Assembly (NCBI RefSeq): GCF_001646665.1
Contig: NZ_LWBU01000091.1
Location: 1-64,000, forward strand
Origin: Streptomyces noursei
GTDB taxonomy: Bacteria; Actinomycetota; Actinomycetes; Streptomycetales; Streptomycetaceae
Length of the DNA stretch: 64,000 nucleotides
Reading direction: 5' to 3'
In this document: positions 40,163 to 61,317 of the stretch, in pieces
Layout: every line of letters begins with the position of its first letter
Position numbering within the stretch: the stretch's first letter is position 1
The notes under the pieces: generated by a model
Databases searched by the model: none
What the model saw: the letters and a program-made list of their open reading frames with translations, nothing else
What the model was told of the DNA's origin: nothing
Program-made: the position numbers and the translations under genes

Positions 40163-40179
40163 AGGGACCAGCGGCCCCT
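40163..40179. promoter_or_regulatory. DevR/DosR-box-like motif 1
   Basis: AGGGACCAGCGGCCCCT ends 65 bp before the first universal stress protein gene. It fits the consensus AGGGRCC-N3-GGSCCCT found at four genes of the island and is followed by TGCGT, as at motif 2. It is close to the GGGAC-N4-GTCCC layout of DosR-type sites. Confidence 0.6.
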
Positions 40180-40243
40180 GCGTCGGGTCCGCCGCGGCCA
40201 GCATGCTGACGGGAACACCCGTCTGCCCATCGGAGGTCCGCGT

Positions 40244-41134
40244 ATGTCCCGCTCACTCACCGTCGGCCTCGACGGTTCCCGAGTATGCGCGGAAGCCGTC
40301 CGCTGGGCCGCCGGGGAGGCGTCACGCCGGTGTCTGACGCTGAAGCTGGTGCAGGTGTGGGACATCCGGCCGGACGTCCACACGCCCCTGGTCGGCCGGG
40401 ACACGGAGTACGACCGGCCCGAATGGAGTCCGCGCGCGGTCGCCTCGCGTGTGCGCGACGCCCATCCGGGCCTGGACGTGGTGACCGGGTACGTGTGCGG
40501 TGACCCGGTCGAGACCTTGTGCGACATCGCGCGGAAGGAGGATCTGCTGGTCCTCGGGTCACGGGGGCTGGGTGCCGTGGCCGGGTTCGCCCTCGGCTCC
40601 GTGTCGCTGTCCGTGGTGGCACACGCCTCCCGCCCGGTGGTGCTCGTCCGCGCGCCCATGGAGAGCGCGGGTCCCCCCGGTCCGCCCCCATGGCAGGACT
40701 CCGGTCCGGTCGTCGTCGGGGTCGACCTGTCCGGCGGCTGCGACGAGGTGCTGGGGTTCGCCTTCGCCCACGCCGCCGAACACGGTACCTCCGTGCGGGT
40801 CGTCCACAGCTGGAGTCCTCCGCCCTTCCATGGAGCCGACTCCACCCCGTCAGGGCGTGCGTTGACGGCGGGGGTGGCGATCGCGAAGGACGAAGCGCTG
40901 ACCGAGGCGCTGCGGCCCTGGCGCCACAAGTTCCCCTCCGTGCCCGTCACCGCGCTGTGCCGGCTCGGGCGTCCCGCGCGCGATCTGGTCGACGCCTCGC
41001 AGGACGCGGGTCTGGTCGTCGTGGGCCGCCGCACGCGCCGGGCACGGCTCGGCGCGCACCTGGGCTCCGTCACGCACGCCGTGCTGCACCACTGCGGGTC
41101 ACCTGTGGCCGTGGTGCCGCACGACGACGTGTAG
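40244..41134 (+). CDS. tandem-domain universal stress protein
   Basis: This 296-residue protein has two UspA domains. Each has an N-terminal LTVGLDGS or VVVGVDLSGG strand and a C-terminal ATP-binding loop (GSRGLGAVAGFALGSVS in the first, VGRRTRRARLGAHLGSVTHA in the second). Tandem UspA proteins of this sort are typical members of DosR-type hypoxia regulons. It is the first gene of the island and has a DevR-box-like site 65 bp upstream. It may bind ATP and act in low-energy survival. Confidence 0.93.
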   Translation: MSRSLTVGLDGSRVCAEAVRWAAGEASRRCLTLKLVQVWDIRPDVHTPLVGRDTEYDRPEWSPRAVASRVRDAHPGLDVVTGYVCGDPVETLCDIARKEDLLVLGSRGLGAVAGFALGSVSLSVVAHASRPVVLVRAPMESAGPPGPPPWQDSGPVVVGVDLSGGCDEVLGFAFAHAAEHGTSVRVVHSWSPPPFHGADSTPSGRALTAGVAIAKDEALTEALRPWRHKFPSVPVTALCRLGRPARDLVDASQDAGLVVVGRRTRRARLGAHLGSVTHAVLHHCGSPVAVVPHDDV

Positions 41135-41191
41135 CGGACCCACCCCCGCGCCGGGATCCCCGCGCGTGCCCGCCCGTCCGCCGCACGACCC

Positions 41192-41208
41192 AGGGGCCGA
41201 AGGGCCCT
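41192..41208. promoter_or_regulatory. DevR/DosR-box-like motif 2
   Basis: AGGGGCCGAAGGGCCCT lies 193 bp before arcA and is again followed by TGCGT. It is the second copy of the island consensus. Confidence 0.6.
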
Positions 41209-41310
41209 GCGTACCGGCCGGACCGGCCCTCTCCCCCGGGTACCGCACAGCCTGACACCGGGGACCGTTGCCGTCCGGGTCGGGCGGGTCGCGAGTGACA
41301 GGGTTCGACT

Positions 41311-41347
41311 GCTCCCCGGGCGTCCGTCCCGCAGACGCCCGGGGAGC
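41311..41347. terminator. perfect hairpin before arcA
   Basis: A perfect 14-bp stem (GCTCCCCGGGCGTC at 41311-41324 with 41334-41347) and 9-nt loop lie 54 bp before the arcA ATG. It may end USP transcripts, but without a U-run. If arcA transcription starts near 41210 the hairpin would be in its leader. Confidence 0.6.
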
Positions 41348-41400
41348 ACGTCATGTGCCCTGTATGCGCGGCACTTCGTCACCGACCTCACGGGGATGCC

Positions 41401-42624
41401 ATGTCCTTTCACGTCGACTCCGAGACCGGCCGTCTGAAGCAGGTCATCCTGCACCGGCCGGACCTGGAGCTGAAACGCCTCACGCCCACCAACAAGGACG
41501 CTCTCCTCTTCGACGACGTGCTGTGGGTCAAGCGCGCCCGCGAGGAGCACGACGCCTTCGCCGACACGCTGCGGGACCGGGGAGTGCGTGTCCATCTCTT
41601 CGCGGACCTGCTGACGGAGACGTTGGCACTGCCCGCCGCCCGGCAGCTGATCATGGAGCGTGTCTTCGACGAGCGGGAGTTCGGGGCCTCGGCCACCGAT
41701 CGGTTCCGGGCGTACTTCGACTCCTTGGAGCCGGACGCGCTGACCGCCTGTCTCATCGGCGGTGTCACCAGGAGCGAACTGCTCGAGCGGGTCGGGACCC
41801 TGCCGAGTGTCCGGCTCCACGCCATGGCACCCGACGACTTCCTGCTCGCACCGCTGCCCAATCACCTGTTCACGCGCGACACGTCGTGCTGGGCGTACGA
41901 CGGGGTGAGCATCAACCCGATGAGCAAGCGGGCCCGTCGCAGGGAGACGGTCCATTTCGAGGCGATCTACCGCCACCACCCTCTCTTCGACAAGGGCGAG
42001 TTCCACCGGTGGACCGACGGCGAGGGCGCCTACCCCGCCACCATCGAGGGCGGTGACGTGCTCGTCATCGGCAACGGCGCCGTGCTCATCGGCATGAGTG
42101 AGCGGACCACCCCGCAGGCGGTGGAGAACCTGGCACTGCGGATGTTCGCCGCGGGCTCCGCCCGGCGGGTGGTGGCGGTCAACATGCCCAAGCGCCGCAG
42201 CTTCATGCACCTGGACACCGTGATGACGATGGTCAGCGGGGACACCTTCACCCGTTACGCCGGGTTGGGGATGCTGCCGGCGTCCACGATCGAACCCGGC
42301 GCGGGCGGGCAGGGTCTGAAGATCACGGACCACGTGCCCGAGCACATGGACCAGGCCATCGCGGACGCACTGGGGCTTCCGTCCATCAACGTGCTCACCC
42401 CCAGCCAGGACGTGCGGTCCGCCGAGCGGGAGCAGTGGGACGACGGCTGCAACGTGCTGGCCGTGGAGCCCGGTGTGGTCGTCGCCTACGAGCGCAACGT
42501 CACCACCAACACGTACCTGCGCAAGAGGGGGATCGAGGTCGTCACCGTGCGCGGCAGCGAGCTCGGCCGGGGCCGCGGCGGCCCGCGGTGCATGAGCTGC
42601 CCCATCGAGCGAGAAGCCGCCTGA
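41401..42624 (+). CDS. arcA: arginine deiminase
   Basis: This 407-residue enzyme hydrolyses arginine to citrulline and ammonia, the first step of the ATP-yielding ADI pathway. Guanidino-binding and catalytic blocks are present: [30 protein letters not shown] (catalytic His) and the C-terminal catalytic Cys397 in RCMSCPIE. The ATG at 41401 is preferred; 16 more codons are open upstream but precede the family start. It heads the arcA-argF-arcC-transporter operon. In low oxygen it would supply ATP and raise pH. Confidence 0.96.
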
Positions 42625-42691
42625 CGCACCCGGCGTTCCGCCACCACCTGCCTCTTCCCACCTCTGACGCACGCACCCGGGAGATACGAGC

Positions 42692-43693
42692 ATGTCCGTC
42701 GACCTGAGCCACCGCACCTTCCTCAAGGAACTCGACTTCACCCCGGAGGAGTTCCGCCACCTGCTGGAGTTGTCCGCACGGATCAAGGCGGCCCGCCACG
42801 ACCGATGCGAGGAGCAGCGACTGCGCGGCAAGAACATCGCCGTCATCTTCGAGAAGACCTCGACCAGGACCCGCTGCGCGTTCGAAGTGGCCGCCCACCA
42901 GCAGGGCGCGCACGTGACCTACCTCGATCCCGCCGGCTCACAGCTCGGACACAAGGAATCCATCAAGGACACCGCCCGGGTGCTGGGCCGTTACTACGAC
43001 GGCATCGAGTACCGGGGCAGTGACCAGCGCCTGGTGGAGGAGCTGGCCCGGTACGCCGGTGTTCCGGTGTGGAACGGGCTGACCGACCAGTGGCATCCCA
43101 CCCAGTCGCTCGCCGACGTGCTCACCATGTGGGAACACACCGACAAGCCGCTCCACCAGGTGTCCTTCGCCTACCTGGGGGACGCCCGGAACAACGTCGG
43201 CAACTCATTGCTGATCACCGCTGCGATGCTCGGCATGGACGTGCGCATGGTCGGCCCCGGCTCCCTGCACAACGCGCCCGGCATGGTCGACGAGGCACGC
43301 AAGGTGGCAGCCGGCACCGGCGCGCGGATCACACTCACCGAGAACGTGGCCGAAGGTGTGGCCGGCGTCGACTTCGTCTACACCGACGTCTGGCTGTCGA
43401 TGGGGGAGCCCCCGGAGCTGTGGGACGAGCGCATCGCCCTGCTCAAGCCCTACCAGGTGACCTCCGCCGTCCTCCGGGCGACCGGCAACCCGCGGGTGAA
43501 GTTCATGCACTGCCTCCCGGCCTTCCACAACAGCGACACCACCGTCGGCGCGAAGATCGCCGCCCGCACCGGCATGACCGCGCTGGAGGTCACCGACGAG
43601 GTCTTCGAGTCCTCCCACTCCATCGTGTTCGACCAGGCCGAGAACCGGCTCCACACCATCAAGGCGGTTCTCGTCGCCACCCTCGCCGACTGA
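42692..43693 (+). CDS. arcB: catabolic ornithine carbamoyltransferase
   Basis: This 333-residue enzyme is placed to run in the catabolic direction, turning citrulline and phosphate into ornithine and carbamoyl phosphate. The carbamoyl-phosphate motif STRTR is at 57-61. Later come HPTQSLADV, the catalytic Cys in [11 protein letters not shown] and the C-terminal [11 protein letters not shown]. The length and position between arcA and arcC support the catabolic type rather than the biosynthetic argF. Confidence 0.95.
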
Positions 43694-43726
43694 CCCCGCC
43701 CGCCACCCACCCCCTGGAGAACACTC

Positions 43727-44680
43727 ATGCGTGTCGTCGTCGCCCTGGGTGGCAACGCCCTGCTCCGCCGCGAGGAACGGCCGGACGCCGCCGTGCAACT
43801 CGCCAACGTCCGCGCCGCCGTGGCGGCCCTCGCCCCGCTCGCCCGTGAGCACGAGCTCGTCATCACCCACGGCAACGGCCCCCAGGTCGGCGTCCTCGCC
43901 CTGGAAAGCGCCGAGGACCGCTCCCTGAGCAGCCCCTACCCCTTCGACGTCCTGGGCGCGGAGACCCAGGGCATGATCGGCTACTGGCTCCTGCAGTCCC
44001 TGCAGAACGCCCTGCCCGGCCGACAGGTGTGCGCCCTGCTGAACCAGACCCTGGTCTCCGCCGCCGACCCCGCCTTCGCCGACCCGGCCAAATTCGTCGG
44101 CCCCGTCTACGACCGGGGCGAGGCCGAACGGCAGGCCGCCGACCGGGGCTGGACGGTCAGGCAGGACGGCACGCACTGGCGGCGCGTCGTGCCCTCGCCC
44201 CGCCCGCAGCGGGTCGTGGAGACCCGGCTGATCCGGCTGCTGCTCCAGTCGGGAGCGGTGGCCGTGTGCGCCGGAGGCGGCGGCGTACCGGTCATCCGGG
44301 ACGAGCGGGGACATCTGACCGGTGTCGAGGCGGTGGTGGACAAGGACCTCACCGCGGCGCTTCTGGCCGAGGCGCTCGACGCCGACGCCCTGCTGCTGCT
44401 CACCGACGTCCCCCACGTCTCGCTCCACTACGGCACCCCCGACGCCGAACCCATCCGGCACACCACCCCCGCGGCGCTCCGGGCCCTGGAATTCCCGGCG
44501 GGCTCGATGGGCCCCAAGGTCGACGCAGTGTGCCGGTTCGTGGAGCTCACGGGCGGCACCGCCGCCATCGGCGCCCTCCGGGACGCCCGCGCCATCCTCG
44601 ACGGGACCGCCGGCACCGTCGTCACACCCACCGGCCGCGATCTCGACCGCCGCCCCGACGCGCATGAGGACCTGACATGA
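43727..44680 (+). CDS. arcC: carbamate kinase
   Basis: This 317-residue kinase uses carbamoyl phosphate to phosphorylate ADP, the energy-yielding step of the ADI pathway. The amino-acid-kinase signature is visible as VALGGNALLRREE, then ITHGNGPQVG, VCAGGGGVPVI, DKDLTAALLA and the final AGSMGPKVDAV region. It lies 33 bp after arcB and overlaps the transporter start (ATGA). Confidence 0.96.
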   Translation: MRVVVALGGNALLRREERPDAAVQLANVRAAVAALAPLAREHELVITHGNGPQVGVLALESAEDRSLSSPYPFDVLGAETQGMIGYWLLQSLQNALPGRQVCALLNQTLVSAADPAFADPAKFVGPVYDRGEAERQAADRGWTVRQDGTHWRRVVPSPRPQRVVETRLIRLLLQSGAVAVCAGGGGVPVIRDERGHLTGVEAVVDKDLTAALLAEALDADALLLLTDVPHVSLHYGTPDAEPIRHTTPAALRALEFPAGSMGPKVDAVCRFVELTGGTAAIGALRDARAILDGTAGTVVTPTGRDLDRRPDAHEDLT

Positions 44681-46200
44681 GCCTCGACACACCCCCCGTG
44701 ACCCCCGAGCCCGCCGCCGACGATGCCGGCACCGCGCCCACCAGGCGGCGCTTCGCCTTCCCCTCCGCCTTCACCGTCCTGGTGGCGGTCACGGTCATGG
44801 TCTGGGCCCTGACCTTCGTGCTGCCCGCCGGCCGCTACGACACCAGGGACGGCAGCCCCGTCCCCGGCACCTACCGGCCGGTGGAGGTGACCGCGGGCTT
44901 CTGGGAGCGGCTCAAGGACCTGTTCCTCTCACCGGTCAACGGCCTGTACGGGGTCACCGACACCCAGAGCGGTCTCACCAGCCCCGGGGCCACCGGCACC
45001 TTCGCGGGCGCAGCCGGAGTGTTCCTCTTCATCCTGGCCGTGGGCGCCTTCATCACCGTCACGATGCGCACCGGCGCCCTCACCGCCGGAGTCGCACGCC
45101 TCGCCCAACGCCTGCGCCACCACCGGGCGATACTGCTCGTCGTCCTCATGGCGGTGTTCTCCCTCGGCGGTACCACCTACGGCATGGCGGAGGAGACCCT
45201 CGGCTTCTACGGGCTCATGATCCCCCTGATGCTCGGCCTCGGTTACGACCGCATGGTCGCCGCGACCGTCATCATGGTCGGCGCCGGAGTCGGCACCCTC
45301 GCCTCCACCGTGAACCCGTTCGCCACCGGAGTCGCCTCCGACAGCGCCGGCATCGGCACCGGGGACGGCATTCTGCTGCGCCTGGCGATGTGGGCCTGCC
45401 TGACGGCGCTGGCAGCCGCGTACGTGCTGCGCTACGCCCACCGCATCACCGCCGACCCCGCCCGCTCCCTGACGCCGCTCACCGAGGACGACCACCGCCT
45501 CCGGGCGGAGGGCGGCGGCCGGGCGGACCTCACCGGCCGTCAGCGCGTCGTCCTGGGCCTCTTCGCGGCCACCTTCCTCTTGATGATCTTCGCCGTGGTC
45601 CCGTGGGCTGATCTGCACATCACCTTCCTGCCCGCACTCGGCTGGTACTTCCCCGAACTCGCCGCCCTGTTCATCGTCGCGTCCGTCCTCGTCGGCCTGA
45701 TCGGAGGCCTGCGGGAGAAGGGGACCGCGGAGGCCATCACCGCCGGAGCGGGAGACTTCATCGGCGCGGCCGTGATCGTCATGCTGGCCAGGGGCGTCAC
45801 CATCATCATGAACAACGCCAGTGTCACCGACACCATCCTGAACACCCTGCACAGCGCCGTATCGGGCACGTCGTCCGGCGCGTTCGCCGTGCTGATGTTC
45901 GGGGTGAACCTCCCCCTGGCGTTCTTCGTCCCCTCCTCCTCCGGCCACGCGGCCCTCGCCATGCCCATCCTCGCGCCGCTGGCCGACTTCGCCGGGGTCA
46001 GCCGGGCACTGGTGGTCACCGCCTACCAGTCGGCCTCGGGATGGGTGAACCTCATCACCCCGACGTCCGCCGTCGTCATGGGCGGCCTCGCCCTGGCCAA
46101 GGTCCGTTACGACCAGTACCTGCGCTTCATGGCACCCCTCATGGGCATGCTGCTCGTGGCGGTCGCCGGCTTCCTGGCACTCGGCGCGGCCCTGAGCTGA
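44677..46200 (+). CDS. YfcC/DcuC-family transporter, likely arginine/ornithine exchanger
   Basis: This 507-residue polytopic protein of the YfcC (C4-dicarboxylate/basic amino-acid) family has about 12 hydrophobic segments. Recognisable stretches include GTFAGAAGVFLFILAVGAF, GGTTYGMAEETLGFYGLMIP and SSSGHAALAMPILAPL near the end. Its start overlaps arcC, so it is the fourth gene of the ADI operon and probably exchanges arginine for ornithine or takes up arginine. A role for dicarboxylates cannot be ruled out. Confidence 0.85.
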   Translation: MSLDTPPVTPEPAADDAGTAPTRRRFAFPSAFTVLVAVTVMVWALTFVLPAGRYDTRDGSPVPGTYRPVEVTAGFWERLKDLFLSPVNGLYGVTDTQSGLTSPGATGTFAGAAGVFLFILAVGAFITVTMRTGALTAGVARLAQRLRHHRAILLVVLMAVFSLGGTTYGMAEETLGFYGLMIPLMLGLGYDRMVAATVIMVGAGVGTLASTVNPFATGVASDSAGIGTGDGILLRLAMWACLTALAAAYVLRYAHRITADPARSLTPLTEDDHRLRAEGGGRADLTGRQRVVLGLFAATFLLMIFAVVPWADLHITFLPALGWYFPELAALFIVASVLVGLIGGLREKGTAEAITAGAGDFIGAAVIVMLARGVTIIMNNASVTDTILNTLHSAVSGTSSGAFAVLMFGVNLPLAFFVPSSSGHAALAMPILAPLADFAGVSRALVVTAYQSASGWVNLITPTSAVVMGGLALAKVRYDQYLRFMAPLMGMLLVAVAGFLALGAALS

Positions 46201-46218
46201 GCCCGGCTCCGGTCCCCC

Positions 46219-46253
46219 GGGCCGGCGGGCCGGTGCACTCGGCCCGCCGGCCC
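46219..46253 (+). terminator. arc operon terminator
   Basis: A perfect 14-bp stem (46219-46232 with 46240-46253) begins 19 bp after the transporter stop. A tandem 12-bp repeat (CCGCCACTGTGT) follows. Confidence 0.75.
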
Positions 46254-46405
46254 GCCACTGTGTCCGCCACTGTGTCCGCCGCGGTGCGGGCCTCATGGCG
46301 GCGCCGGACGGGCCATCAGGCCCCTGCGCAACGCCCCGCTGTTCGGCAACAGTGAGATCCGGACATGGGCAGGGCGCCCATCAGCCGCTCAGGGAGGTGG
46401 GCCCC

Positions 46406-46600
46406 ATGCCCGGACTGCTGGCCATCGGAGCCGTCACATCGATAGGGCTCGGCGCGATTCTCGTCTTCGCCGTCGACTGGCAGTGGGACGGCGCCGACCG
46501 GCCGCTGGTGGGACTGATCATGATGGCGGTCGGATCGCTCGCCCTGGTCGCCGCGACAAGCATGTACGGCCACGATTCCCGCTCCGGGCAGGCGTCGTGA
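46406..46600 (+). CDS. DUF6458-type small membrane protein
   Basis: This 64-residue protein has two membrane helices (about 4-22 and 36-53) split by the motif VDWQWDGADRPLVG. It closely resembles the DUF6458 family found across actinobacteria. A strong GGGAGGTGGG ribosome site precedes the ATG. Function unknown. It sits between the arc operon and the second universal stress protein, so it may respond to the same stress. Confidence 0.8.
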   Translation: MPGLLAIGAVTSIGLGAILVFAVDWQWDGADRPLVGLIMMAVGSLALVAATSMYGHDSRSGQAS

Positions 46601-46976
46601 GAGGCGGCCCCCGTGTGCGGGACCGGCGGGGCCGGTGCGGGTACCGCGTCCGCCGCCCAACGGCGGGGCGGGACGGGCCACTCGGTTCGACACCCCGCTC
46701 CGGACAGCCCCGAGGGGCCCCGCGGCACGGGCCCATGCCCTGACGCCCCGGGGGATCCCGTGCGCGGGTGACAGCCCCGGCCTCCGCGCGGAGGCCGGGG
46801 CTGTCGGCGTTCCCGTGCCGGTGGTCCGGTCGGCCTTGCCGGGCCGTACGCGACCGCCCCGACGCCGCACCGTCGGGAACGCCGGGGCCGGACGCGGCCG
46901 CCGCCCTTGGAGGACAACGTCCGCGCCCGGCCCCGTCCGCAGCGTCCAGTGCTGTCGTCCCGGCTCCGACCGACGG
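46601..46976. other. gene-free stretch between small membrane gene and second USP
   Basis: About 375 bases with no supported gene. They contain a strong hairpin (46771-46804) between the convergent genes. The rest is GC-rich spacer. Confidence 0.5.
46771..46804. terminator. bidirectional terminator
   Basis: A perfect 15-bp stem (46771-46785 with 46790-46804) and 4-nt loop lie between the DUF6458-type gene and the minus-strand USP gene. Confidence 0.85.
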
Positions 46977-47906
46977 TCAGAGGTGCGGCACCACCGCGAC
47001 AGGCGCCGCAGCATGGTGCAGCACCGCGTGCGTGACCGGGCCGATGCGCGTACCGAGTGCCGCGCGGCGTACCCGCCGCCCCACGACCAGCAGCGAGGCG
47101 TCCTTCGAGGCGTCCACCAGGTGGTCGGCCGCCCGGCCCACCACGCACTGCTCCTTGACGTCGACGTCCGGGAACTTGCCGCGCCACGGCCGCAGGGCGT
47201 CGGTCAGCGCGCTCGCCTCCCGCAGGCCCATCGCGACGCCGTGTCCGGGATCGGCGGCTGCGGGCTCGTACCCGGACATGATCGGTGTGTTCCATCCGTG
47301 GACGACCCTCAGGCCGGCCCCGCGTGCGGCGGCCGCGGCGAAGGCGTACTCGATCACCTCGTCGCACGGCCGGGTGAGGTCGAGTCCCAGCACCACATCG
47401 AGGTGCCGCACCCGGCGGGCCTCGCCCCCGCCCTCGTACCGCGGTTCGTCCTCGGCGCGCTCGCCGGCCCGTACGAGGACGACGGGGCGCTCGGCGTGTG
47501 CGATGACGGGCATCGACACCGATCCCGCGAGGAAGCCCCCCAGTGCTCCCAGCCCCCGCGAACCCAGGACCAGGACCTCCGCCTCGTTCGCGGCGGCGAG
47601 CAGCACCTCGACGGGACGGCCGAAGACCTGCTCGACGCCGATCCGCAGACCGGGATGGTCCTCCCGCAGCCGCTCGGCCACGTCACGCGGGACACGCTCG
47701 GCCCAGTGCTGGGTGACGGTCGTCCCGCCGGGTGCGGTGTCCGCACCCGTGAACGGGGCGTGGACGGAGCCCGGCGACCACTCCTGCCAGGCGTGGACGA
47801 TGTGCAGGGGGAGACCGCGCAGCAGTGCCTCACGGGCAGCCCACCGCGCGGCTGCCCGCGACTCGGCCGAGCCGTCCACAGCGGCGATGACAAGACGTCG
47901 TGACAT
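46977..47906 (-). CDS. tandem-domain universal stress protein
   Basis: This 309-residue paralogue of the protein at 40244 also has two UspA domains. ATP-loop motifs are GSRGLGALGGFLAGSVS and VGRRVRRAALGTRIGPVTHA. The ATG at 47906 has GGAGG 6 nt upstream. It is divergent from the arc operon side and convergent with the small membrane gene. Like its paralogue it is expected to act in hypoxic or starvation survival, by analogy with DosR-regulon Usps. Confidence 0.93.
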   Translation of the reverse strand: MSRRLVIAAVDGSAESRAAARWAAREALLRGLPLHIVHAWQEWSPGSVHAPFTGADTAPGGTTVTQHWAERVPRDVAERLREDHPGLRIGVEQVFGRPVEVLLAAANEAEVLVLGSRGLGALGGFLAGSVSMPVIAHAERPVVLVRAGERAEDEPRYEGGGEARRVRHLDVVLGLDLTRPCDEVIEYAFAAAAARGAGLRVVHGWNTPIMSGYEPAAADPGHGVAMGLREASALTDALRPWRGKFPDVDVKEQCVVGRAADHLVDASKDASLLVVGRRVRRAALGTRIGPVTHAVLHHAAAPVAVVPHL

Positions 47907-48110
47907 GGAATCCTCCGGGTGAGGGGACGTTTGCGTCGGGAAGCGGCCGCGGACGGGGCGAAGGCCGGGCCCACCCGCCGGGGTGCGCACGTGCCGGCGG
48001 AGAGGGGTCGGGCCGTTCACGGCGGCCGGTGGTGGGGGTGCGGGTCGGGACGGGGGTGCTGCCGGGCCGGGGTTTCCGGGCCGGGGGGGCGGTCCACCGG
48101 GCCGGGGCGA

Positions 48111-48287
48111 TCAGCCCGTAGTGGCCGTCGTAGCGGTGGGCTTCACCCGGGCGGCCGACACCGGTTCGCCGACGTGGCCGAGGGCCGCGAGCACCGTCTC
48201 CCGTGCGTAGGCATCCGCACCACGGGGCACTTGCCCCCGGCTGCTGACCCGGACATCGAGCGCCCGGCCGGTCTTGAGACCGCTCAT
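48111..48287 (-). CDS. truncated ribosome-hibernation-factor-like protein
   Basis: This 58-residue ORF has an excellent ribosome site (GGAGGTG) before its ATG. Residues 10-50 (ALDVRVSSRGQVPRGADAYA, TVLAALGHVGEPVSAARVK) match the N-terminal strand-helix of HPF/RaiA-type proteins that actinobacterial DosR-like regulons often contain. The full family is three to four times longer and has further domains; here the frame ends at TGA and the DNA below shows no clear continuation. It is either a remnant or a stand-alone fragment. I call it by eye. Confidence 0.55.
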   Translation of the reverse strand: MSGLKTGRALDVRVSSRGQVPRGADAYARETVLAALGHVGEPVSAARVKPTATTATTG

Positions 48288-48687
48288 GGGAACACCTCCT
48301 CGATCGCTCTCAGCCTGTCCGGCGCCGACCCCCGCCGGCAGAGCCGACCGGGCCGCCTCCACGGTGCGACCGGTCCCCCGCGCCGACCGCCCGTCCGGGA
48401 CGTACGGGCGTCCTGCGGAAGGCCGTTCGGCCCCGGGCCGGGGGCGCGTACGGAGCCGACATCTGCCCGGGGGTGTGCCTGGGCGGGCACAGAGGGGGCG
48501 GACGGCGCCCTGCCATGCCTTCGTCCGGGGCCGGACCGTCTGGCCGGTGATCCGCCCGGGCCGCCCGGCGTGCGGGAGACGAGGGCCCAATGGCGGGGGG
48601 ACGGCCCGACCGACCCCTGCCGCGGGGTGGCCGGGTGCCCGCACGCTGGCACCACCTGCACAGGCACCCCTCAGGAGGGCGGCGGAA
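48288..48687. other. divergent region before GAPDH
   Basis: About 400 bases without a gene. It holds several imperfect GC palindromes (for example AGGGGGC and GCGCCCT with a 5-nt gap, 48492-48510, and GGCCG-TT-CGGCC near 48421-48432). None matches the island motif as well as the four listed boxes, so I do not call a site here. Confidence 0.4.
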
Positions 48688-49716
48688 ATGACCGTACGCA
48701 TGGCGATCAACGGCTTCGGGCGCATCGGGCGCAGCTACCTGCGCTGCGTCATGGAACGCGCGGAGGCGGCGAGCGGTACGCCGGTGGAGGTGGTGGCCGT
48801 CAACGACCTCGCCCCTCCGGCGGCGCTGGCCCACCTGCTCACCTATGACTCGACCTACGGCCGGCTCGGCCGCACCGTCGAGCACGACGACGAGTCGATC
48901 ACGGTGGACGGGCACCGCATCGCCGTCATGTCCGAGCGCGACCCGGCCGGGCTGCCCTGGGAGGCCCTGGGCGTCGACGTGGTCGTCGAGGCCACCGGCC
49001 GCTTCCGTACGCGGGAGGAGGCCGGCCGGCACGTGCGGGCGGGAGCGCGCAAGGTCCTGCTGTCGGTCCCGGGCAAGGGCGTGGACGCCACCATCGTCAT
49101 GGGGGTCAACGAGTACACCTACGACCCGCGGCTCGACCACGTGATCTCCAACGCGTCCTGCACCACCAACTGCGTGGCCCCGATGGTGAAGGTCCTCCAC
49201 GACCGCTTCGGGATCGTCAAGGGCCTGATGACCACCATCCACGGCTACACCAACGACCAGGTCGTGCTCGACGGCCCGCACAAGGACCTGCGCCGGGGCC
49301 GTACGGCGGCCGTCAACATCATCCCGACCAGTACCGGTGCCGCCCGGGCCGTCGGGCTGGTCCTTCCCGAACTGGCGGGCACCCTGGACGGCATCGCGGT
49401 GCGCGTGCCGGTCGAGGACGGCTCGCTGACCGACCTCGGTCTCGTACTCGAACAGCCGGTGAGCGCCCAGGACGTCAACGACGCGTTCCGCGAAGCGGCC
49501 GACGGGCCCCTGAAGGGCATCCTGCGCGTCAGTGACGCGCCGATCGTCTCGCGCGACATCGTCGGCGACCCGGCCTCGTGCATCGTGGACGCCCCGCTGA
49601 CCCAGGCGCACGGGAACCTGGTCAAGGTCTTCGGCTGGTACGACAACGAGTGGGGGTACACCAACCGTCTCGTCGACCTGACCCAGTACGTCGCGGCCCT
49701 TCTCGACCCGCGATGA
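48688..49716 (+). CDS. gap: glyceraldehyde-3-phosphate dehydrogenase
   Basis: This 342-residue NAD-type GAPDH oxidises glyceraldehyde-3-phosphate to 1,3-bisphosphoglycerate. The Rossmann motif INGFGRIGRSYLR leads, Asp40 favours NAD, the catalytic Cys158 is in SNASCTTNC and the His in TTIHGYTND. The ATG at 48688 has GGAGG upstream. It is an extra copy sitting away from pgk/tpi and overlapping an Rv1733c-type gene, so it probably supports glycolytic flux during fermentation. Confidence 0.95.
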   Translation: MTVRMAINGFGRIGRSYLRCVMERAEAASGTPVEVVAVNDLAPPAALAHLLTYDSTYGRLGRTVEHDDESITVDGHRIAVMSERDPAGLPWEALGVDVVVEATGRFRTREEAGRHVRAGARKVLLSVPGKGVDATIVMGVNEYTYDPRLDHVISNASCTTNCVAPMVKVLHDRFGIVKGLMTTIHGYTNDQVVLDGPHKDLRRGRTAAVNIIPTSTGAARAVGLVLPELAGTLDGIAVRVPVEDGSLTDLGLVLEQPVSAQDVNDAFREAADGPLKGILRVSDAPIVSRDIVGDPASCIVDAPLTQAHGNLVKVFGWYDNEWGYTNRLVDLTQYVAALLDPR

Positions 49717-50318
49717 GCACCGGGCTCCCGGCCGGCCGGGAAAAAGAAGGTGCCGCAGCGCCCGTCCGGAAGGTGTGGCTGTGGCGGTGGCGCGGCAACG
49801 AACTGCGTCACCGTTCCCACGCGGTGGAGGGCTGGATCCTCCTGCTCCTGGGGGTGGCCGGGTTCGTCGGTGCGCCGCTGGGCGGCGCGGTGGCCTGGGA
49901 CACGGTGCTGGAGGGCCGGGCACGCCAGCTGACCGAGCGACACCTCACCAATGCGGTGCTGGTGGAGGATCCGGCTCCCGCGGCGAGGGGCAGCACCCGC
50001 ACCCGGGCCACCGCCCGGTGGACCGCGCCCGACGGCACCGCGCACACGGCGCGGGTTCCGGTCGGAAGCCATCTGGAGCGCGGGGCGCGTGTCCCGGTGT
50101 GGACGGACGAGGACGGGGCGATGACCTCCGCACCGCCGGCGCCGGCCGCCGCACGGTTCGATGCCGCGGCAGCCGCTCTCGCCGTCACGGTGGGCCTCGG
50201 TTTCCTGGTGCTCGCCGTCCACCGGCTCGTACGACGGCGCCACGAGCGGCGCCGCGCCGCGCAGTGGGGCCGGGAATGGGCGCGGGTCGCCCCCGAGTGG
50301 GACCGCAGGACCGCCTGA
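49713..50318 (+). CDS. Rv1733c-family membrane protein
   Basis: This 201-residue protein has two membrane helices, the first at about 40-64 (WILLLLGVAGFVGAPLGG) and the second at about 155-175. Between lies an extracytoplasmic beta-rich region (RATARWTAPDGTAHTARVPV), and the C-terminus is basic. This is the layout of the Rv1733c family, a known member of the mycobacterial dormancy regulon. Its ATG overlaps the GAPDH stop (ATGA), tying it to this island. Molecular function unknown. Confidence 0.82.
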   Translation: MSTGLPAGREKEGAAAPVRKVWLWRWRGNELRHRSHAVEGWILLLLGVAGFVGAPLGGAVAWDTVLEGRARQLTERHLTNAVLVEDPAPAARGSTRTRATARWTAPDGTAHTARVPVGSHLERGARVPVWTDEDGAMTSAPPAPAAARFDAAAAALAVTVGLGFLVLAVHRLVRRRHERRRAAQWGREWARVAPEWDRRTA

Positions 50319-50351
50319 CCGGGACGCTCCGGAGACCACTGGGTCCCTCAC

Positions 50352-50368
50352 CGGGACCTTCGGGACCT
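50352..50368. promoter_or_regulatory. DevR/DosR-box-like motif 3
   Basis: CGGGACCTTCGGGACCT lies 100 bp before adhE and matches the island consensus in 15 of 17 positions. GGGTCCC just upstream (50341-50347) adds a second inverted half-site. Confidence 0.55.
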
Positions 50369-50467
50369 TCGCCACCGGCATCCCCGGCACCAGGCTGGGG
50401 CCGAGACGACGAGCGGCCGACCCGCGTGACCGGCCGATCCCCACCCCCCGCATCCAGGGAGCCATCC

Positions 50468-53128
50468 ATGACGCAGGTGACCAGTGACCGCAGCGACACC
50501 TCCGACGGGGGCGTCCCCTCCGAGGCACGGATCGCCGTGAACCGACTCGTCGACCACGCCGTCAAGGCGCTCGCCGACTTCGAGTCCCTGACGCAGGAGC
50601 AGGTCGACCACATCGTCGCCAAGGCGTCCGTCGCCGCTCTGGACCAGCACACCGCCCTGGCGCACCTCGCGGTGGAGGAGACCGGTCGCGGGGTGTTCGA
50701 GGACAAGGCGGCGAAGAACATGTTCGCCTGCGAGCACGTCACCCACGGCATGGCCCGGACGAAGACGGTCGGCGTCGTCGCGCGTGACGACATCGAGGGC
50801 ATCATCGAGATCGCCGAACCCGTCGGCGTGCTCTGCGCGATCACCCCGGTCACCAATCCGACGTCCACCACAATCTTCAAGGCGCTGCTGGCCCTGAAGA
50901 CGCGCAACCCGGTCGTCTTCGCCTTCCACCCCTCCGCGCAGGCGTGCAGCGCCGAGGCAGCCCGCATCGTGCGGGACGCCGCCGTCGCCGCCGGGGCGCC
51001 CGAGCACTGCGTGCAGTGGATCGAGGCACCCTCGATCGAGGCCACCGGCCTCCTCATGCACCACCCGGGCGTGGCGATGATTCTCGCGACCGGCGGGAAC
51101 AGCATGGTCAAGGCGGCCTACTCGGCGGGCAAGCCCGCCGTCGGCGTCGGCGCGGGCAACGTCCCCGCCTACGTGCACCACAGTGCGGATCTGCGCCGGG
51201 CGGTCAACGACCTGGTGCTGTCCAAGTCCTTCGACAACGGCATGATCTGCGCCTCCGAACAGGCCGTCATCCTCGACACCGGCATCTACGAGCAGGCCCT
51301 GGCCGAGTTCCGGCGCCTGCACGCCCACGTCGCGACGGCCGAGGAGAAGCGGAAGCTGGAGACCTACCTGTTCCCGCCGGACCCGGCCGGACGGCAGGGC
51401 CGTGTCAACCCGGCGGCCGTGGGCCGGAGCCCCGCCTGGATCGCCGAGCGGGCGGGGTTCGCGGTCCCCGCCGAGACGTCGCTCATCCTGGCCGAGGCGA
51501 GCGGTGTCGGGCCCGACGAGCCGCTCACCCGGGAGAAGCTCTGCCCGGTCCTCACCGTCCTGCGGGCCGGCTCGGCCGAGGAGGGCTTCGACCTCGCGGC
51601 CGACATGGTGGACTTCCACGGTCAGGGCCACAGCGCGGTGATCCACACCGGCGACGCCACCCTCGCCGAACGCTACGGCCGCCGCATGAAGACCGTGCGG
51701 ATCATCGTCAACTCCCCCTCGTCACAGGGCGCGATCGGCGGCATCTACAACCGTCTGCTTCCCTCCCTCACCCTGGGCTGCGGCTCCTGGGGCAGCACGT
51801 CGGTCTCCGACAACGTGTCCGCCGCCCAGCTGCTCAACATCAAGCGCGTCACCACCCGGCAGAACAACCTGCAGTGGTTCAAAGTGCCGCCGAAGATCTA
51901 CTTCGAGCCGCAGGCCATCCGCTACCTGGCAGCGATGCCCGGCGTGCACCGCGTCACCGTGGTCACCGACGCCACCATGACCCGGCTCGGCTACGTCGAC
52001 CGCGTCAGCCGCGTCCTGCGGCAGCGGGAACACCCCGTGACCATCCAGGTCGTCGACGACGTCGAACCCGAGCCCAGCATCGCCTCCGTCCAGCGCGGCG
52101 CCGCCCTCATGCGCGACTTCCGCCCGGACACCATCATCGCCCTGGGCGGCGGATCCCCCATGGACGCGGCGAAGGTGATGTGGCTGCTGTACGAGCAGCC
52201 GGACGTCGACTTCGCCGACATGCGGCAGAAGTTCTCCGACATCCGCAAGCGGGCCTTCCGCTTCCCCGTACTCGGTGAGCGGGCCCGCCTGGTCTGCGTG
52301 CCCACCACCTCGGGCACCGGCGCCGAGGTCACCCCGTTCGCGGTGATCTCCGACCCGGCGACCGGCAAGAAGTACCCGCTCGCCGACTACGCACTGACGC
52401 CCAGTGTCGCCATCGTCGACCCCGTCCTGACCGCCGGCCTGCCCTCCTCGCTCGCGGCCGACAGCGGTTTCGACGCCCTCACCCACGCCACCGAGGCCTA
52501 CGTGTCGGTCTACGCCAACGACTTCACCGACGGCCTGGCGCTGCACGCCATCAAGCTGATCTTCGAGAACCTCGAGACCTCGGTCACCGGCCGGGACGCG
52601 GAGCGAACCCTGGCCCGGGAGAAGATGCACAACGCCGGCACCATCGCCGGCATGGCCTTCGGCAACGCCTTCCTCGGCATCGTCCACGCCATGTCCCACA
52701 CGCTGGGCGCCACCTTCCACATCGCCCACGGCCGGACGAACGCGATCCTGCTCCCGCACGTGATCCGCTACAACGGCAGCGTTCCCGCCAAGCCGACGGG
52801 GTGGCCGAAGTACGAGAGCTACCGGGCACCGGAACGCTTCCAGGACATCGCCCGAACCCTCGGCCTGCCCGCCGCCACGCCCGCCGAAGGCGTGGCCTCC
52901 TACGCCGCAGCGGTGGAACGCCTGCGCGACGGAGTCGGCATCGAGCCGTCCTTCCGCGCCCTGGGCATCGACGAGACGGCCTTCGTCACGGCCCTTCCCG
53001 CACAGGCGCTGAACGCCTACGAGGACCAGTGCGCCCCGGCCAACCCGCGCACGCCGATGCTCGACGACATGGAGGACATCATGCGCGCCGCCTACTACGC
53101 CGGTCCCCGGCCACTGCCCTCGACCTGA
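50468..53128 (+). CDS. adhE: bifunctional acetaldehyde-CoA/alcohol dehydrogenase
   Basis: This 886-residue fermentative enzyme reduces acetyl-CoA to acetaldehyde and then to ethanol, regenerating two NAD+. The N-terminal aldehyde dehydrogenase domain (about 20-450) has the catalytic Cys261 in SFDNGMICASEQA. The C-terminal iron-type alcohol dehydrogenase (about 460-886) has GGGSPMDAAKVMW, PTTSGTGAEVTPF and the metal His cluster in VHAMSHTLGATFHIAHGRTN. The full length matches E. coli-type AdhE. It lies directly before pflB, forming a pyruvate-to-ethanol route. Confidence 0.96.
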   Translation: MTQVTSDRSDTSDGGVPSEARIAVNRLVDHAVKALADFESLTQEQVDHIVAKASVAALDQHTALAHLAVEETGRGVFEDKAAKNMFACEHVTHGMARTKTVGVVARDDIEGIIEIAEPVGVLCAITPVTNPTSTTIFKALLALKTRNPVVFAFHPSAQACSAEAARIVRDAAVAAGAPEHCVQWIEAPSIEATGLLMHHPGVAMILATGGNSMVKAAYSAGKPAVGVGAGNVPAYVHHSADLRRAVNDLVLSKSFDNGMICASEQAVILDTGIYEQALAEFRRLHAHVATAEEKRKLETYLFPPDPAGRQGRVNPAAVGRSPAWIAERAGFAVPAETSLILAEASGVGPDEPLTREKLCPVLTVLRAGSAEEGFDLAADMVDFHGQGHSAVIHTGDATLAERYGRRMKTVRIIVNSPSSQGAIGGIYNRLLPSLTLGCGSWGSTSVSDNVSAAQLLNIKRVTTRQNNLQWFKVPPKIYFEPQAIRYLAAMPGVHRVTVVTDATMTRLGYVDRVSRVLRQREHPVTIQVVDDVEPEPSIASVQRGAALMRDFRPDTIIALGGGSPMDAAKVMWLLYEQPDVDFADMRQKFSDIRKRAFRFPVLGERARLVCVPTTSGTGAEVTPFAVISDPATGKKYPLADYALTPSVAIVDPVLTAGLPSSLAADSGFDALTHATEAYVSVYANDFTDGLALHAIKLIFENLETSVTGRDAERTLAREKMHNAGTIAGMAFGNAFLGIVHAMSHTLGATFHIAHGRTNAILLPHVIRYNGSVPAKPTGWPKYESYRAPERFQDIARTLGLPAATPAEGVASYAAAVERLRDGVGIEPSFRALGIDETAFVTALPAQALNAYEDQCAPANPRTPMLDDMEDIMRAAYYAGPRPLPST

Positions 53129-53214
53129 CGCCCGGTTCACCGCACGGCCGATGGACCTCCCCGCCGCACGACGGTCGCCCGCTCCGAGCGCGGGCGGACG
53201 GTCCCCCGGGCCGT

Positions 53215-53231
53215 CGGGACCACCGGCCCCG
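53215..53231. promoter_or_regulatory. DevR/DosR-box-like motif 4
   Basis: CGGGACCACCGGCCCCG lies 141 bp before pflB. The core GGGACC-N3-GGCCCC is identical to motif 1; only the outer bases differ. Confidence 0.6.
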
Positions 53232-53371
53232 TCCGCCCCCGCGGGAGAAGGCCGGTCGGCGACATGGCCTGCCTCACCGGCCCTGGGCCCGGTGGCGGGC
53301 GAGCGACGAACATCGAGGGCGAGGCCGGGCCCTCCCCGCCCCGCCGGCCGCCGTCCCCCGGAGATGACTAG

Positions 53372-55639
53372 ATGACCGTGACCGTCCGACCTTCCGCCGA
53401 CCCCCGGCCCACCGACAGCGCGTGGCACGGTTTCACCGGTGAGCAGTGGCAGCAGCGCATCGACGTGCGGGCCTTCATCCAGGCGAACTACACGCCGTAC
53501 GAGGGCGATGCCGCGTTCCTGGCCGGTCCCACCGACCGCACGCTCGCCGTGTGGAACACCGTCGCCGCCCTCTTCCCCGAGGAGCGCCGCAAGGGCGTCC
53601 TCGACGTCGACACCGCGACGCCCTCCACCATCACCTCCCACGCGCCCGGCTACATCGACCGGGACCGGGAGCTGATCGTCGGACTTCAGACCGACGCTCC
53701 GCTGAAGCGGGCCATCATGCCCAACGGCGGACTGCGCATGGTCGCCAACGGCCTGCGCGCGTACGGTTTCACACCCGACCCGTTCGTCACCACGGTCTTC
53801 GGCACCTATCGCAAGACGCACAACGACGGCGTCTTCGACGCCTACACCCCCGAGATGCTGCGCGCCCGGAAGGCCGGCATCATCACGGGCCTGCCCGACG
53901 CGTACGGGCGTGGCCGGATCATCGGCGACTACCGGCGCGTCGCGCTGTACGGGACCGGCCGGCTGATCGAGGCGAAGCGCGCCGAGCGGGCACGGCTGGA
54001 CACCCGGCCCTCCACCCCGGACGTCATCCGCGACCGCGAGGAACTGGCCGAGCAGATCAGGGCGCTCGGCGAGCTGGAGCGCATGGCCGCCTCTTACGGC
54101 TGCGACGTCTCCCGCCCCGCCGCCACCGCGCACGAGGCCGTTCAATGGCTCTACCTGGGCTTCCTCGCCGCGGTGAAGGAGCAGAACGGCGCCGCCATGT
54201 CCCTGGGCCGCACCTCGACGTTCCTGGACGTCTACCTCCAGCGTGACCTCGGCGAAGGGGTCATCGACGAGAGCCGCGCCCAGGAGCTCGTCGACGACTT
54301 CGTGATCAAACTGAGGATCGTGCGGTTCCTGCGCACGCCGGAGTACGACTCCCTCTTCTCCGGCGACCCGACGTGGGTCACCGAGTCCATCGGCGGCATC
54401 GGGGAGGACGGCCGGCCCCTGGTGACCCGCACCTCCTTCCGCTTCCTGCGGACCCTGTACAACCTCGGCCCCGCCCCCGAGCCCAACCTGACGGTCCTGT
54501 GGTCCCCCCGTCTGCCCGAGGGCTTCAAGCGCTTCTGCGCCCAGGTGTCCGTCGACACCAGCTCCCTCCAGTACGAGTCCGACGACCTCCTGCGCCCCCG
54601 TACCGGCGACGACACGGCCATCGCCTGCTGCGTCTCCGCCATGACGGTGGGCAGGCAGATGCAGTTCTTCGGGGCTCGTGTCAACCTGGCCAAGGCCCTG
54701 CTGTACGCGGTCAACGGCGGCCGCGACGAGATGACGGGCGAGCAGATCGGCCCCCCGACGGCCCCGCTGACCGGCGAGTACCTCGACCACGACGAGCTCG
54801 CGACGGCGTACGACACGATGCTGGACTGGCTGGCCGCCACCTACGTCAACGCCCTGAACGTCATCCACTGCATGCACGACAAGTACGCCTACGAGCGCAT
54901 CGAGATGGCCCTGCACGACCACCCCGTGCACCGCACCATGGCCTGCGGCATCGCGGGCCTGTCCGTGGCCGCGGACAGCCTCTCGGCCGTCAGGTACGCC
55001 CGGGTGCGGGTCGTCCGGGACGCCACCGGCCTGGCCGTCGACTACCGGGTCGAGGGCGACTACCCGTCCTACGGCAACGACGACGACCGCGCCGACAGCA
55101 TCGCCGTCGGCCTGGTCCGTTCCTTCATGGCCAAGGTGCGCCGCCACGAGACGTACCGGGGCGCCGCACACACCCAGTCGGTACTGACCATCACCTCGAA
55201 CGTCGTGTACGGCAAGCACACCGGCAACACCCCCGACGGCCGCCGCGCCGGCACGCCCTTCGCCCCGGGCGCGAACCCCATGAACGGCCGCGACCACCAC
55301 GGCATGGCCGCGTCCGCCCTCTCCGTCGCCAAGATCCCGTACGACCAGGCACGCGACGGCATCTCGCTGACCTCCACGGTCACACCCGAGGGCCTGGGCC
55401 ACGACCCCGCGGAACGCGCCGGGAACCTCGTGGGCATCCTCGACGCCTACACCGCCGCCGGCGGATTCCACATGAACGTCAACGTCCTCGACCGGGCCAC
55501 GCTGCGGGACGCCATGGAGCACCCGGAGAAGTACCCGGACCTGACGATCCGCGTCTCCGGATACGCCGTCAACTTCGTCCGCCTGACACGCGAACAGCAG
55601 CTGGACGTCATCAACCGCACGTTCCACGGTGCGCGATGA
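53372..55639 (+). CDS. pflB: pyruvate formate-lyase
   Basis: This 755-residue glycyl-radical enzyme cleaves pyruvate with CoA to acetyl-CoA and formate. The adjacent active-site cysteines are C419-C420 ([20 protein letters not shown]) and the radical glycine is G730 (RVSGYAVNF). Both match E. coli PflB, which separates it from diol-dehydratase-type relatives. The ATG at 53372 follows GGAGATGACTAG. The activase gene overlaps its stop. The radical is destroyed by oxygen, so the gene implies an anoxic phase of life. Confidence 0.97.
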
Positions 55640-56364
55640 CCACGGGCCGCATCCACTCCTGGGACCTCTCCACCGGCGTGGACGGTCCCGGGACCCGGTT
55701 CGTCCTCTTCCTCAACGGCTGCCCGCTGCGCTGCCTGTACTGCGCCAACCCCGACACCTGGCACCTGCGCGACGGGCAGCCGGTCACCGCGGACGAGGTC
55801 GTCACCCGCATCGAGCGGTACCGCCGGTTCACCGACCTCGCGGGCGGCGGGGTGACCCTCACCGGGGGTGAGCCCCTGCTCCAGCCCGTCTTCACCGCCG
55901 AGGTGCTGCACCGGTGCAAGGAGCTCGGCCTGCACACCGCCCTGGACACGTCCGGAGCCCTCGGCCGCAGGGCCGGCGACGCGCTCCTGGCGGACACCGA
56001 TCTCGTCCTGCTCGACATCAAGTCCTTCGACGCCGGTGTGTACCGGCGTCTGACCGGCGGCCGCCTCGCCCCGACCCTCGACTTCGCCACCCGGCTGCAC
56101 CGCCTGGGCGTACCCACCCATGTCCGGTACGTCCTCGTCCCCGGCTGGACCGACGACCCCGCGCACATCGACGGTCTGGCCGGTTTCCTGGCGGAGCTGG
56201 ACAACGTCGAGCGGGTCGACGTCCTCCCCTTCCACAAGCTCGGCGCACCCAAGTACGACGCGCTCGGCGTGCCCTTCCCCCTCCGGGACGGCCCCCTACC
56301 GGACGGTGCTCTCGTCGAGCGCGTGCGCGAGCAGTTCCGCGCCCACGGCCTCCGGGCGCTGTGA
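55636..56364 (+). CDS. pflA: pyruvate formate-lyase activating enzyme
   Basis: This 242-residue radical-SAM enzyme installs the glycyl radical on PflB. The cluster motif CxxxCxxC is C29, C33, C36 ([10 protein letters not shown]), followed by [14 protein letters not shown] and LDIKSFD. Its ATG overlaps the pflB stop (ATGA), so the two are translated together. Length and motif placement are those of standard PflA without extra ferredoxin domains. Confidence 0.96.
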
Positions 56365-60516: not shown

Positions 60517-60583
60517 CAAGACACTCCAGGCATTCGAGCGAATACGACCGCCCGCTCAACGACCGGCACGGGGCGGAAGGCAC

Positions 60584-60598
60584 GGCGTATTCGATCTA
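60584..60598 (-). promoter_or_regulatory. TATTCGATC-type promoter element
   Basis: GGCGTATTCGATCTA here matches GGCATATTCGATCAA ahead of uppS (37516-37530) in 13 of 15 bases, both upstream of minus-strand genes. It may be a shared -10 region or activator site; the factor is unknown. Confidence 0.35.
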
Positions 60599-60747
60599 TC
60601 GAAGGTGTCACGGAGGGTCTCGCGGAGGGCACGGTCCGTCGTCCGCCGGGTCCCGCCGGTGCGGGGATGACGTGCCCGCCCCGGCGGCGGGTGTCCGGGC
60701 CCACCCCCGCGGGCGTACCGGTGGGAGGGATCGTGCAGGCTGGGGGG

Positions 60748-61317
60748 ATGACCAGTCGCGTGGAGAAGTACCTCGCCCGTCTCGACCGGCTCTCCGGAGG
60801 CAGGGAGCCCCGGTTCTTCCCCGTCGAGTCGACCAGGCAGGGGCTGCGGGGCGTGACGGCGATCGTGTACGACGACCTGCCGCGGGGGCTTCTCACCACG
60901 TTCACCTACGGCGTTTCCCTCGCCACCCACCCGGACTGGCGGCACTGTTCGCCCGAACTGTGCCTGAGCGTGCGGTCGGAGGACGAGATCTGGGCGCACG
61001 CGGCCGGCTTCCTCGCCGAACAGCTCCGCGGCACCTGCCCCTTCGGGCCCGGCGACACCGTCGACTTCGGCGAGCGGATCGTGCCGGAGTCCGCCATGAC
61101 GGGGTTCTGCGTGTTCGAGCCGGTCGCCTTCGCCCGGGAGGACTGCTCGGCCATCGACGTCGGTGTCCCGGGCCACGAGGGGCACGACGTGATCGCCGTC
61201 CAGGGGCTGTACCCCATCCACGAGGTGGAGCGGCAGTTCATCAACGCGTACGGGATCGACGTCTTCCGGCAGCAGGTGTGGGAGCCCTTCGACGTTCTGC
61301 GCGCACCGGCCGTGTGA
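60748..61317 (+). CDS. SUFU-domain protein
   Basis: This 189-residue protein resembles the suppressor-of-fused family used by bacteria as immunity-like proteins. Typical stretches are TFTYGVSLATHPDWRHCSPE, ELCLSVRSEDEIWAHAAGFL and the final QGLYPIHEVERQFINAYGID. The ATG has a G-run ribosome site. No toxin gene is adjacent, so it may be an orphan immunity or housekeeping paralogue. Function is by family resemblance only. Confidence 0.8.
   Translation: MTSRVEKYLARLDRLSGGREPRFFPVESTRQGLRGVTAIVYDDLPRGLLTTFTYGVSLATHPDWRHCSPELCLSVRSEDEIWAHAAGFLAEQLRGTCPFGPGDTVDFGERIVPESAMTGFCVFEPVAFAREDCSAIDVGVPGHEGHDVIAVQGLYPIHEVERQFINAYGIDVFRQQVWEPFDVLRAPAV

Follow-up and report, generated by a model that had tools for sequence, protein, structure and literature searches.

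Introduction

Streptomyces is regarded as an oxygen-requiring genus; its members do not grow anaerobically, yet S. coelicolor survives anoxia. Universal stress proteins (Usp), the Rv1733c family, HPF-type ribosome hibernation genes and heme-GAF sensor kinases belong to the mycobacterial DosR/DevR regulon, and to our knowledge neither pyruvate formate-lyase (PFL)/AdhE fermentation nor the arginine deiminase (ADI) pathway is part of it. In streptomycetes the functional counterpart of DevR is OsdR, for which PMC5069765 gives 26 site sequences; the same paper mentions the "anaerobic paradox" of streptomycete anaerobic enzymes. Here we describe an island at positions 40163–56364 of a 64,000-nucleotide stretch of Streptomyces noursei DNA, hereafter the window, which comprises positions 1–64,000 of the 293,653-bp contig NZ_LWBU01000091.1 (C91) in a genome of 7.64 Mb and 413 contigs. 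The island contains arcABC, a transporter gene, a glyceraldehyde-3-phosphate dehydrogenase (GAPDH) gene, adhE, pflB, pflA, two Usp genes and an Rv1733c-family gene. Based upon this gene content and predicted regulatory sites, we propose, with a probability of roughly 0.7, that it is an anoxic-survival module under OsdK-OsdR, which would provide ATP from arginine and from formate/ethanol/acetate fermentation.

Energy genes of the island

Scans with curated families and Pfam located every energy gene that the original prediction, made from the sequence alone, had placed here. All lie on the forward strand. Arginine deiminase is encoded by arcA (41353–42624, with an alternative start codon at 41401; NF002381, 510.8 bits, cut-off 414), ornithine carbamoyltransferase by arcB (42692–43693; TIGR00658, 411.9 bits, cut-off 280.85) and carbamate kinase by arcC (43727–44680; NF009008, 437.9 bits, cut-off 361; TIGR00746, 359.3 bits, cut-off 358.25). 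These three form an uninterrupted run with the gene for a DcuC/YfcC-type transporter (44677–46200; PF03606 (DcuC), 373.3 bits). The best NCBIfam match of the transporter is YfcC at 269.5 bits, under the cut-off of 500, so that it is presumed from its place to be an arginine/ornithine carrier.

The second group consists of a type I GAPDH (48688–49716; TIGR01534, 416.7 bits, cut-off 367.2), the bifunctional acetaldehyde-CoA/alcohol dehydrogenase AdhE (50468–53128; NF010378, 1324.4 bits, cut-off 951), PflB (53372–55639; TIGR01255, 1128.1 bits, cut-off 994.2) and the radical SAM PFL activating enzyme PflA (55636–56364; PF04055, 87.2 bits), which contains a CPLRCLYC motif. Alignment to the solved E. 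coli PFL (1h16) revealed that Cys419-420 and Gly730, as numbered in the original prediction, are exactly placed and kept. ArcA and AdhE were likewise aligned with solved relatives: in both, the alignment covers the catalytic motifs and the motifs around the active site are retained, with residues that we take to be the catalytic ones. The start of pflA lies within the stop codon of pflB, and that of the Rv1733c-family gene overlaps the GAPDH stop; the members of each pair are therefore probably translated together.

Predicted OsdR-type boxes

A matrix for the 16-bp palindromic OsdR box was built from the sites in PMC5069765, and scores were compared with 1311 null windows taken from positions 1–38000 of the window and ten clade-B loci. 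Clades were assigned by identity to the PflB of the window (A, at least 82%; B, 70–76%), three partial matches (G013, G042 and G106) being placed in clade A. The best predicted box in the 64 kb (48419–48434, 16.8 bits) lies between a remnant HPF gene and GAPDH, and the second best (41193–41208, 16.5 bits) lies before arcA; neither score was reached by any null window. Predicted boxes of moderate strength lie 157 bp upstream of the pflB start (53215–53230; 10.8 bits, a score reached by 1.4% of null windows) and 81 bp upstream of the start codon of the first Usp gene, usp1 (40163–40178; 9.7 bits, reached by 1.8%). The upstream regions of 36 other window genes reached at least 12 bits once and at least 9.5 bits twice. 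Over the whole window, 10 sites scored at least 10 bits (shuffle mean 4.9, largest 9, n=30 shuffles).

The third-best box of the window (15757–15772, 16.3 bits) is situated at the end of an unrelated MDMPI_N gene; 145 bp further on is a gene (15902–16507) whose product has an Rv2179c-like exoribonuclease domain. A scan for GGGAC-N4-GTCCC with up to two mismatches gave 84 matches, fewer than the shuffle mean of 130.7, and was discarded as being of no use in GC-rich DNA.

The surroundings of pflB were compared in 25 of 56 clade-A genomes (L001, L107–L124 and L139–L144, mostly those of highest identity to the window, and without L106, which shares a contig with L001) and for 14 of 34 clade-B matches (L125–L138), L156 being added later for its adhE. 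Boxes of at least 12 bits precede pflB in 15 of the 25 clade-A loci, a score found in 0.76% of null windows, and in 1/14 clade-B loci (2/15 counting L156). At a threshold of at least 9.5 bits the clade-A count rises to 21, and 20 of these boxes lie 96 to 184 bp before the start; the 12.7-bit site of L107, 158 bp before pflB, is near-identical to that of the window. Similarly, the island-type arcA has a box of at least 12 bits in 7/9 loci and the core arcA in 0/20 (L005 was omitted because it shares a contig with L153, and the core L167, of 21 given, was too short to score). A distance of 208–222 bp between box and arcA is kept in five of nine relatives, with a weak box in one of the five.

Alternatively, these may be ordinary fermentation and arginine-catabolism genes under Rex, ArgR or a CRP-like regulator, with boxes that are chance GC-rich palindromes. 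Sites of at least 12 bits in the window number three, not above shuffles (mean 1.4, largest 4, n=30), so that the argument for OsdR rests on position and conservation; the 16.3-bit site inside an unrelated gene at 15757 and the CRP-like genes near pflB in several relatives also speak for this alternative. We nevertheless consider this explanation unlikely, since the boxes are conserved upstream of pflB in clade A and of the island-type arcA, but not upstream of clade-B pflB or core arcA. Of its candidate regulators Rex was scanned: the seven operator-like sites with up to three mismatches are at chance level (shuffle mean 3.6; 18/100 shuffles reach seven), and those of the island are all inside genes. 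We consider the island likely to be under OsdR control via the predicted boxes.

The OsdK-OsdR switch and published expression

The likely regulator, suggested by OsdR-type boxes in the island and by an OsdK-OsdR pair on contig C43, was overlooked by the original prediction. OsdK (C43:18479–20206) is 92% identical to that of Streptomyces sp. OfavH-34-F, in which the gene order is adhE, osdK, PNPOx, osdR, Usp, pflB, pflA. In the S. noursei genome its own locus (L105) contains osdK, PNPOx, osdR and two divergent Usp genes with a 20.4-bit box between them. The N-terminal GAF domain of OsdK matches the heme domains of DosT (E 5.7e-48) and DevS (E 6e-46), and it keeps the stretch HPPMRTFLGVP, which presumably holds the heme-binding histidine. 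An OsdK-like kinase was found in 55/56 clade-A genomes and in 22 of the 31 that carry only clade-B PflB.

RNA-seq of S. lividans (PMC6302529, Table 2) shows the orthologue of SCO0206, a "putative pyruvate formate-lyase", and an activase fragment rising from 0 to 74 transcripts per million (TPM) together with osdR, alongside Gap3, which rises from 52 to 323 TPM; the activase fragment is labelled a putative pseudogene. In searches of open-licence PMC papers, two rows of that table were all that tied a PFL-like gene directly to OsdR.

Dormancy-type genes and gene order in relatives

The island also contains genes of the dormancy type. The two Usp genes, usp1 (40244–41134, forward strand; PF00582, 150.5 bits) and usp2 (46980–47906, reverse strand; 149.7 bits), had been called tandem; they lie 5.8 kb apart on opposite strands, and each product has two Usp domains, matching PF00582 in two stretches. 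The Rv1733c-family membrane protein (49713–50318, forward strand) gave no match itself in the Pfam scan; its assignment is supported by PF27099, carried by all 42 homologues found, many of which are named Rv1733c family. At 48111–48287 (reverse strand) lies the fragment that had been taken as resembling a hibernation factor. The HPF-type sequence is there, but comparison with 265-amino-acid relatives, one of which (in L152) carries PF16321, indicates a deletion remnant: some 50 N-terminal residues are in one frame and the C-terminal tail in another, with the middle deleted, which rules it out as a working gene. A longer HPF-homologous frame is present at L105 in the same genome. Taken together, the Usps, the Rv1733c-family protein and the HPF remnant are in keeping with a dormancy regulon of the OsdR/DevR type.

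At least one of Usp, OsdR, OsdK, CBS, PPDK, CRP and PNPOx was found beside pflB in 25/25 clade-A loci (in L140 by weak matches only, at 38–43% identity) and in 1/14 clade-B loci, or 2/15 with L156. The latter has OsdK, OsdR, CBS and Usp genes nearby, and its pflB is preceded by a 16-bit box; L127 has an arc operon with an exact-consensus box before arcA. In these two the clade-B pflB is located in an OsdR-type island, unlike the other 13 clade-B loci. The order adhE-osdK-PNPOx-osdR-Usp-pflB-pflA is found in the near relative L001, and a run of GAPDH, Rv1733c-like, adhE, osdK, PNPOx and osdR in G034 and G076 (L148, L157). Fuller islands occur in G227 and G199 (overlapping loci L151 with L109 and L152 with L110), with arcABC-transporter, Usp, HPF, CBS, GAPDH, adhE, osdR, one or two Usps, PPDK, pflB and pflA. 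The island of the window looks like a shortened version of these, without CBS, OsdR and PPDK and with HPF as a remnant.

Another reading is that the whole island is decaying, its genes being on their way out with little or no function. Besides the HPF deletion, G013, G042 and G106 have a partial or split PflB, and the S. lividans activase is labelled a fragment (PMC6302529). In the window, however, the energy genes are of full length and their motifs are conserved, and most listed PflB matches are near full length, which makes decay quite improbable.

Between the transporter and usp2 is a 64-amino-acid small membrane-like open reading frame (46406–46600, forward strand). In L108, L149 and L150 its counterparts, 81–86% identical, are next to arc or Usp genes; its DUF6458 match is below cut-off. 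In L002, L012, L148 and L155 a gene for phosphoketolase (XFP) lies close to adhE or arc genes and may offer a further acetyl phosphate route. Outside Streptomyces, pflB is near Usps in Sphaerisporangium (L010, which has OsdK- and OsdR-like genes too), Virgisporangium (L014) and Dactylosporangium (L015, in which a 19-bit box is located some 100 bp upstream of pflB). To the right of the island, the product of 59815–61317 weakly matches the SUFU domain (26.0 bits, cut-off 25), and an actinobacterial Holin-X gene is next (62722–63168).

Distribution, phylogeny and origin

The survey covered 246 Streptomyces species genomes. PflB was found in 87 (56 with clade A, 31 with clade B only) and is therefore not confined to one odd genome. 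AdhE is present in 66 genomes, 64 of them with PflB where 23.3 would be expected; by class it occurs in 43/56 clade-A, 21/31 clade-B-only and 2/159 PflB-free genomes. ArcA of any type was detected in 244/246 genomes, so that ADI as such is core in the genus, which rules it out as a rare import. What is special is a second operon: the ADI pathway had been listed as part of the low-oxygen set, and it is present, but only the island-type arcA (at least 79% identity) is restricted, being found in 9/246 genomes and lying within 10 kb of adhE in eight of the nine, the window's own counted (adhE matches are partial or in pieces in G057 and G188). The gene set that the original prediction had read as a coherent low-oxygen unit thus does recur in the genus.

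In a PflB tree of 120 rows, made by a quick method with L038 dropped for one stop and duplicate strains included (L003/L119, L005/L153), the window falls in an all-Streptomyces clade of 34 rows with starred support of 100. Next to this clade come Actinomadura, Sphaerisporangium and Acrocarpospora, at a fork with an unstarred support of 92, and beyond them Micromonosporaceae and Kineosporia. The clade-B PflB proteins (70–76% identical) form two separate tree groups, one with Kitasatospora.

An aerobe would not be expected to possess a glycyl-radical enzyme, and contamination of the assembly or recent import from an anaerobe could account for it; unlike flanks would be a sign of this. The GC content of the island is 0.69–0.75 compared with 0.68–0.78 across the rest of the window, its codon-position GC agrees with the flanking DNA, and the contig of 293,653 bp also holds the other (core) arcA of the genome. 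The left flank contains malate synthase, uricase, catalase and other ordinary genes. Given also the position of its PflB within the Streptomyces clade and the similar gene orders in relatives, contamination is disfavoured to the point of being hardly credible: the island is native DNA.

Proposed function

OsdR control, anoxic activity, the products and survival are what we infer from the sequence, as follows. When oxygen falls, OsdK, whose heme-GAF motif is like that of DosT/DevS, would phosphorylate OsdR, and the phosphorylated form would bind the predicted boxes before arcA, GAPDH and pflB. ArcA, ArcB and ArcC may then convert imported arginine to ornithine, ammonia and CO2; carbamate kinase yields one ATP per arginine. 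GAPDH would supply the lower part of glycolysis. Once activated by PflA via a glycyl radical on Gly730, which persists only in the absence of oxygen, PflB would cleave pyruvate to formate and acetyl-CoA, and AdhE would re-oxidise NADH by forming ethanol. The genome contains one phosphotransacetylase (Pta) and one acetate kinase (Ack) gene, side by side on contig C363, and these could turn the remaining acetyl-CoA into acetate and ATP. Formally, glucose would give 2 formate, 1 ethanol and 1 acetate, a stoichiometry in which NADH is balanced. The Usps may serve the resting state. Since some of the energy genes are behind predicted OsdR sites, their likely role would be to sustain resting cells when air is lacking; the outcome would be upkeep of resting mycelium or spores, which is a more sober reading than growth.

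Perhaps it is instead growing cells that use the module, either to balance redox during short microaerobic spells or to obtain nitrogen from arginine. ADI is found almost throughout the genus, and S. lividans raises the expression of OsdR-linked genes in cultures that are aerated (PMC6302529). The neighbouring genes, however, are of the dormancy type. Glycyl-radical enzymes are also destroyed by oxygen, which favours near-anoxic use, and we regard a role in growing cells as possible but doubtful.

Several observations weigh against an anoxic-survival module under OsdR. The sites behind the matrix are published predictions, tested by electrophoretic mobility shift assay for some only. In the window the boxes of pflB and usp1 are moderate, and neither adhE (4.6 bits, a score that 24% of null windows attain) nor usp2 (5.7 bits) has one. 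Among clade-A loci, 4/25 pflB genes score below 9.5 bits, and boxes of at least 12 bits precede adhE in just 5/12 and GAPDH in just 1/4. OsdK-OsdR and the island are on different contigs, and an OsdK-like kinase also occurs in 96/159 PflB-free genomes. AdhE is missing from 13/56 clade-A genomes, and all genome counts ignore kinship. The S. lividans condition was heterologous protein overproduction, in which the authors were unable to confirm hypoxia (PMC6302529). Finally, a genome-wide search for an FNT formate channel gave no match, control genomes giving matches, and the best formate dehydrogenase match in the genome (569.8 bits) is below the curated cut-off of 666.25. The original prediction had noted that the window lacks a formate channel, formate dehydrogenase and acetate kinase; in the genome as a whole no channel was found, formate dehydrogenase is represented by a match under the cut-off, and Ack is on C363. 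To call the island complete was therefore too strong.

No NarG over cut-off was found in this genome. NarG is present in 46/87 PflB genomes and 38/159 others; the two go together, which rules out PFL replacing nitrate respiration as a rule of the genus. The 41/87 PflB strains without NarG, this one included, are clean test cases, and the OsdR-linked module offers identified genes and sites along with the products to be expected (formate, ethanol, acetate, ornithine and ammonia). About one third of Streptomyces species carry PFL, and we lean slightly towards a wider view: one old actinomycete clade of PFL, usually with AdhE and sometimes with a private arc operon, would be wired into the OsdK-OsdR regulon, giving these "obligate aerobes" an oxygen-killed fermentation engine for anoxic dormancy and resolving the "anaerobic paradox". 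If true, this widens the DosR-type dormancy regulon beyond stress proteins and nitrate respiration to substrate-level ATP via a glycyl-radical enzyme.

Comparison with known systems

As in the known arginine deiminase operon, arcA-arcB-arcC and a transporter gene are in one run; the island operon differs in being a second copy besides the core arcAB of the same genome, in its DcuC/YfcC-type transporter and in the OsdR-type box before arcA. Its fermentation enzymes are those of the PflBA-AdhE pathway of E. coli and Staphylococcus, with conserved active sites, and the difference is that no FNT channel was found in this genome. The pathway is controlled there by FNR/ArcA or by Rex (for Rex, PMC5355995); the island has predicted OsdR-type boxes.

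The closest system is the OsdR regulon of S. coelicolor and S. lividans (SCO0162–SCO0219; PMC5069765, PMC6302529). It has the same Usps, CBS, PPDK, PNPOx, nitroreductase and CRP-like genes as are neighbours in the relatives described here, and the same 16-bp palindromic box; the S. lividans PFL-like gene and Gap3 are co-expressed with osdR (PMC6302529). It differs in including the nitrate reductase Nar2 and in its PFL activase, which is a fragment. In S. noursei pflB, pflA, adhE and the arc operon are intact, NarG is not found over cut-off and OsdK-OsdR is on another contig. With the mycobacterial DosR/DevR regulon the island and its genome share Usp, the Rv1733c family, an HPF-type gene and a heme-GAF sensor kinase. 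We conclude that the island is probably a variant form of the dormancy regulons of OsdR/DevR type, one that includes an energy module based on fermentation and arginine, and in which the new part is the likely control by OsdR.

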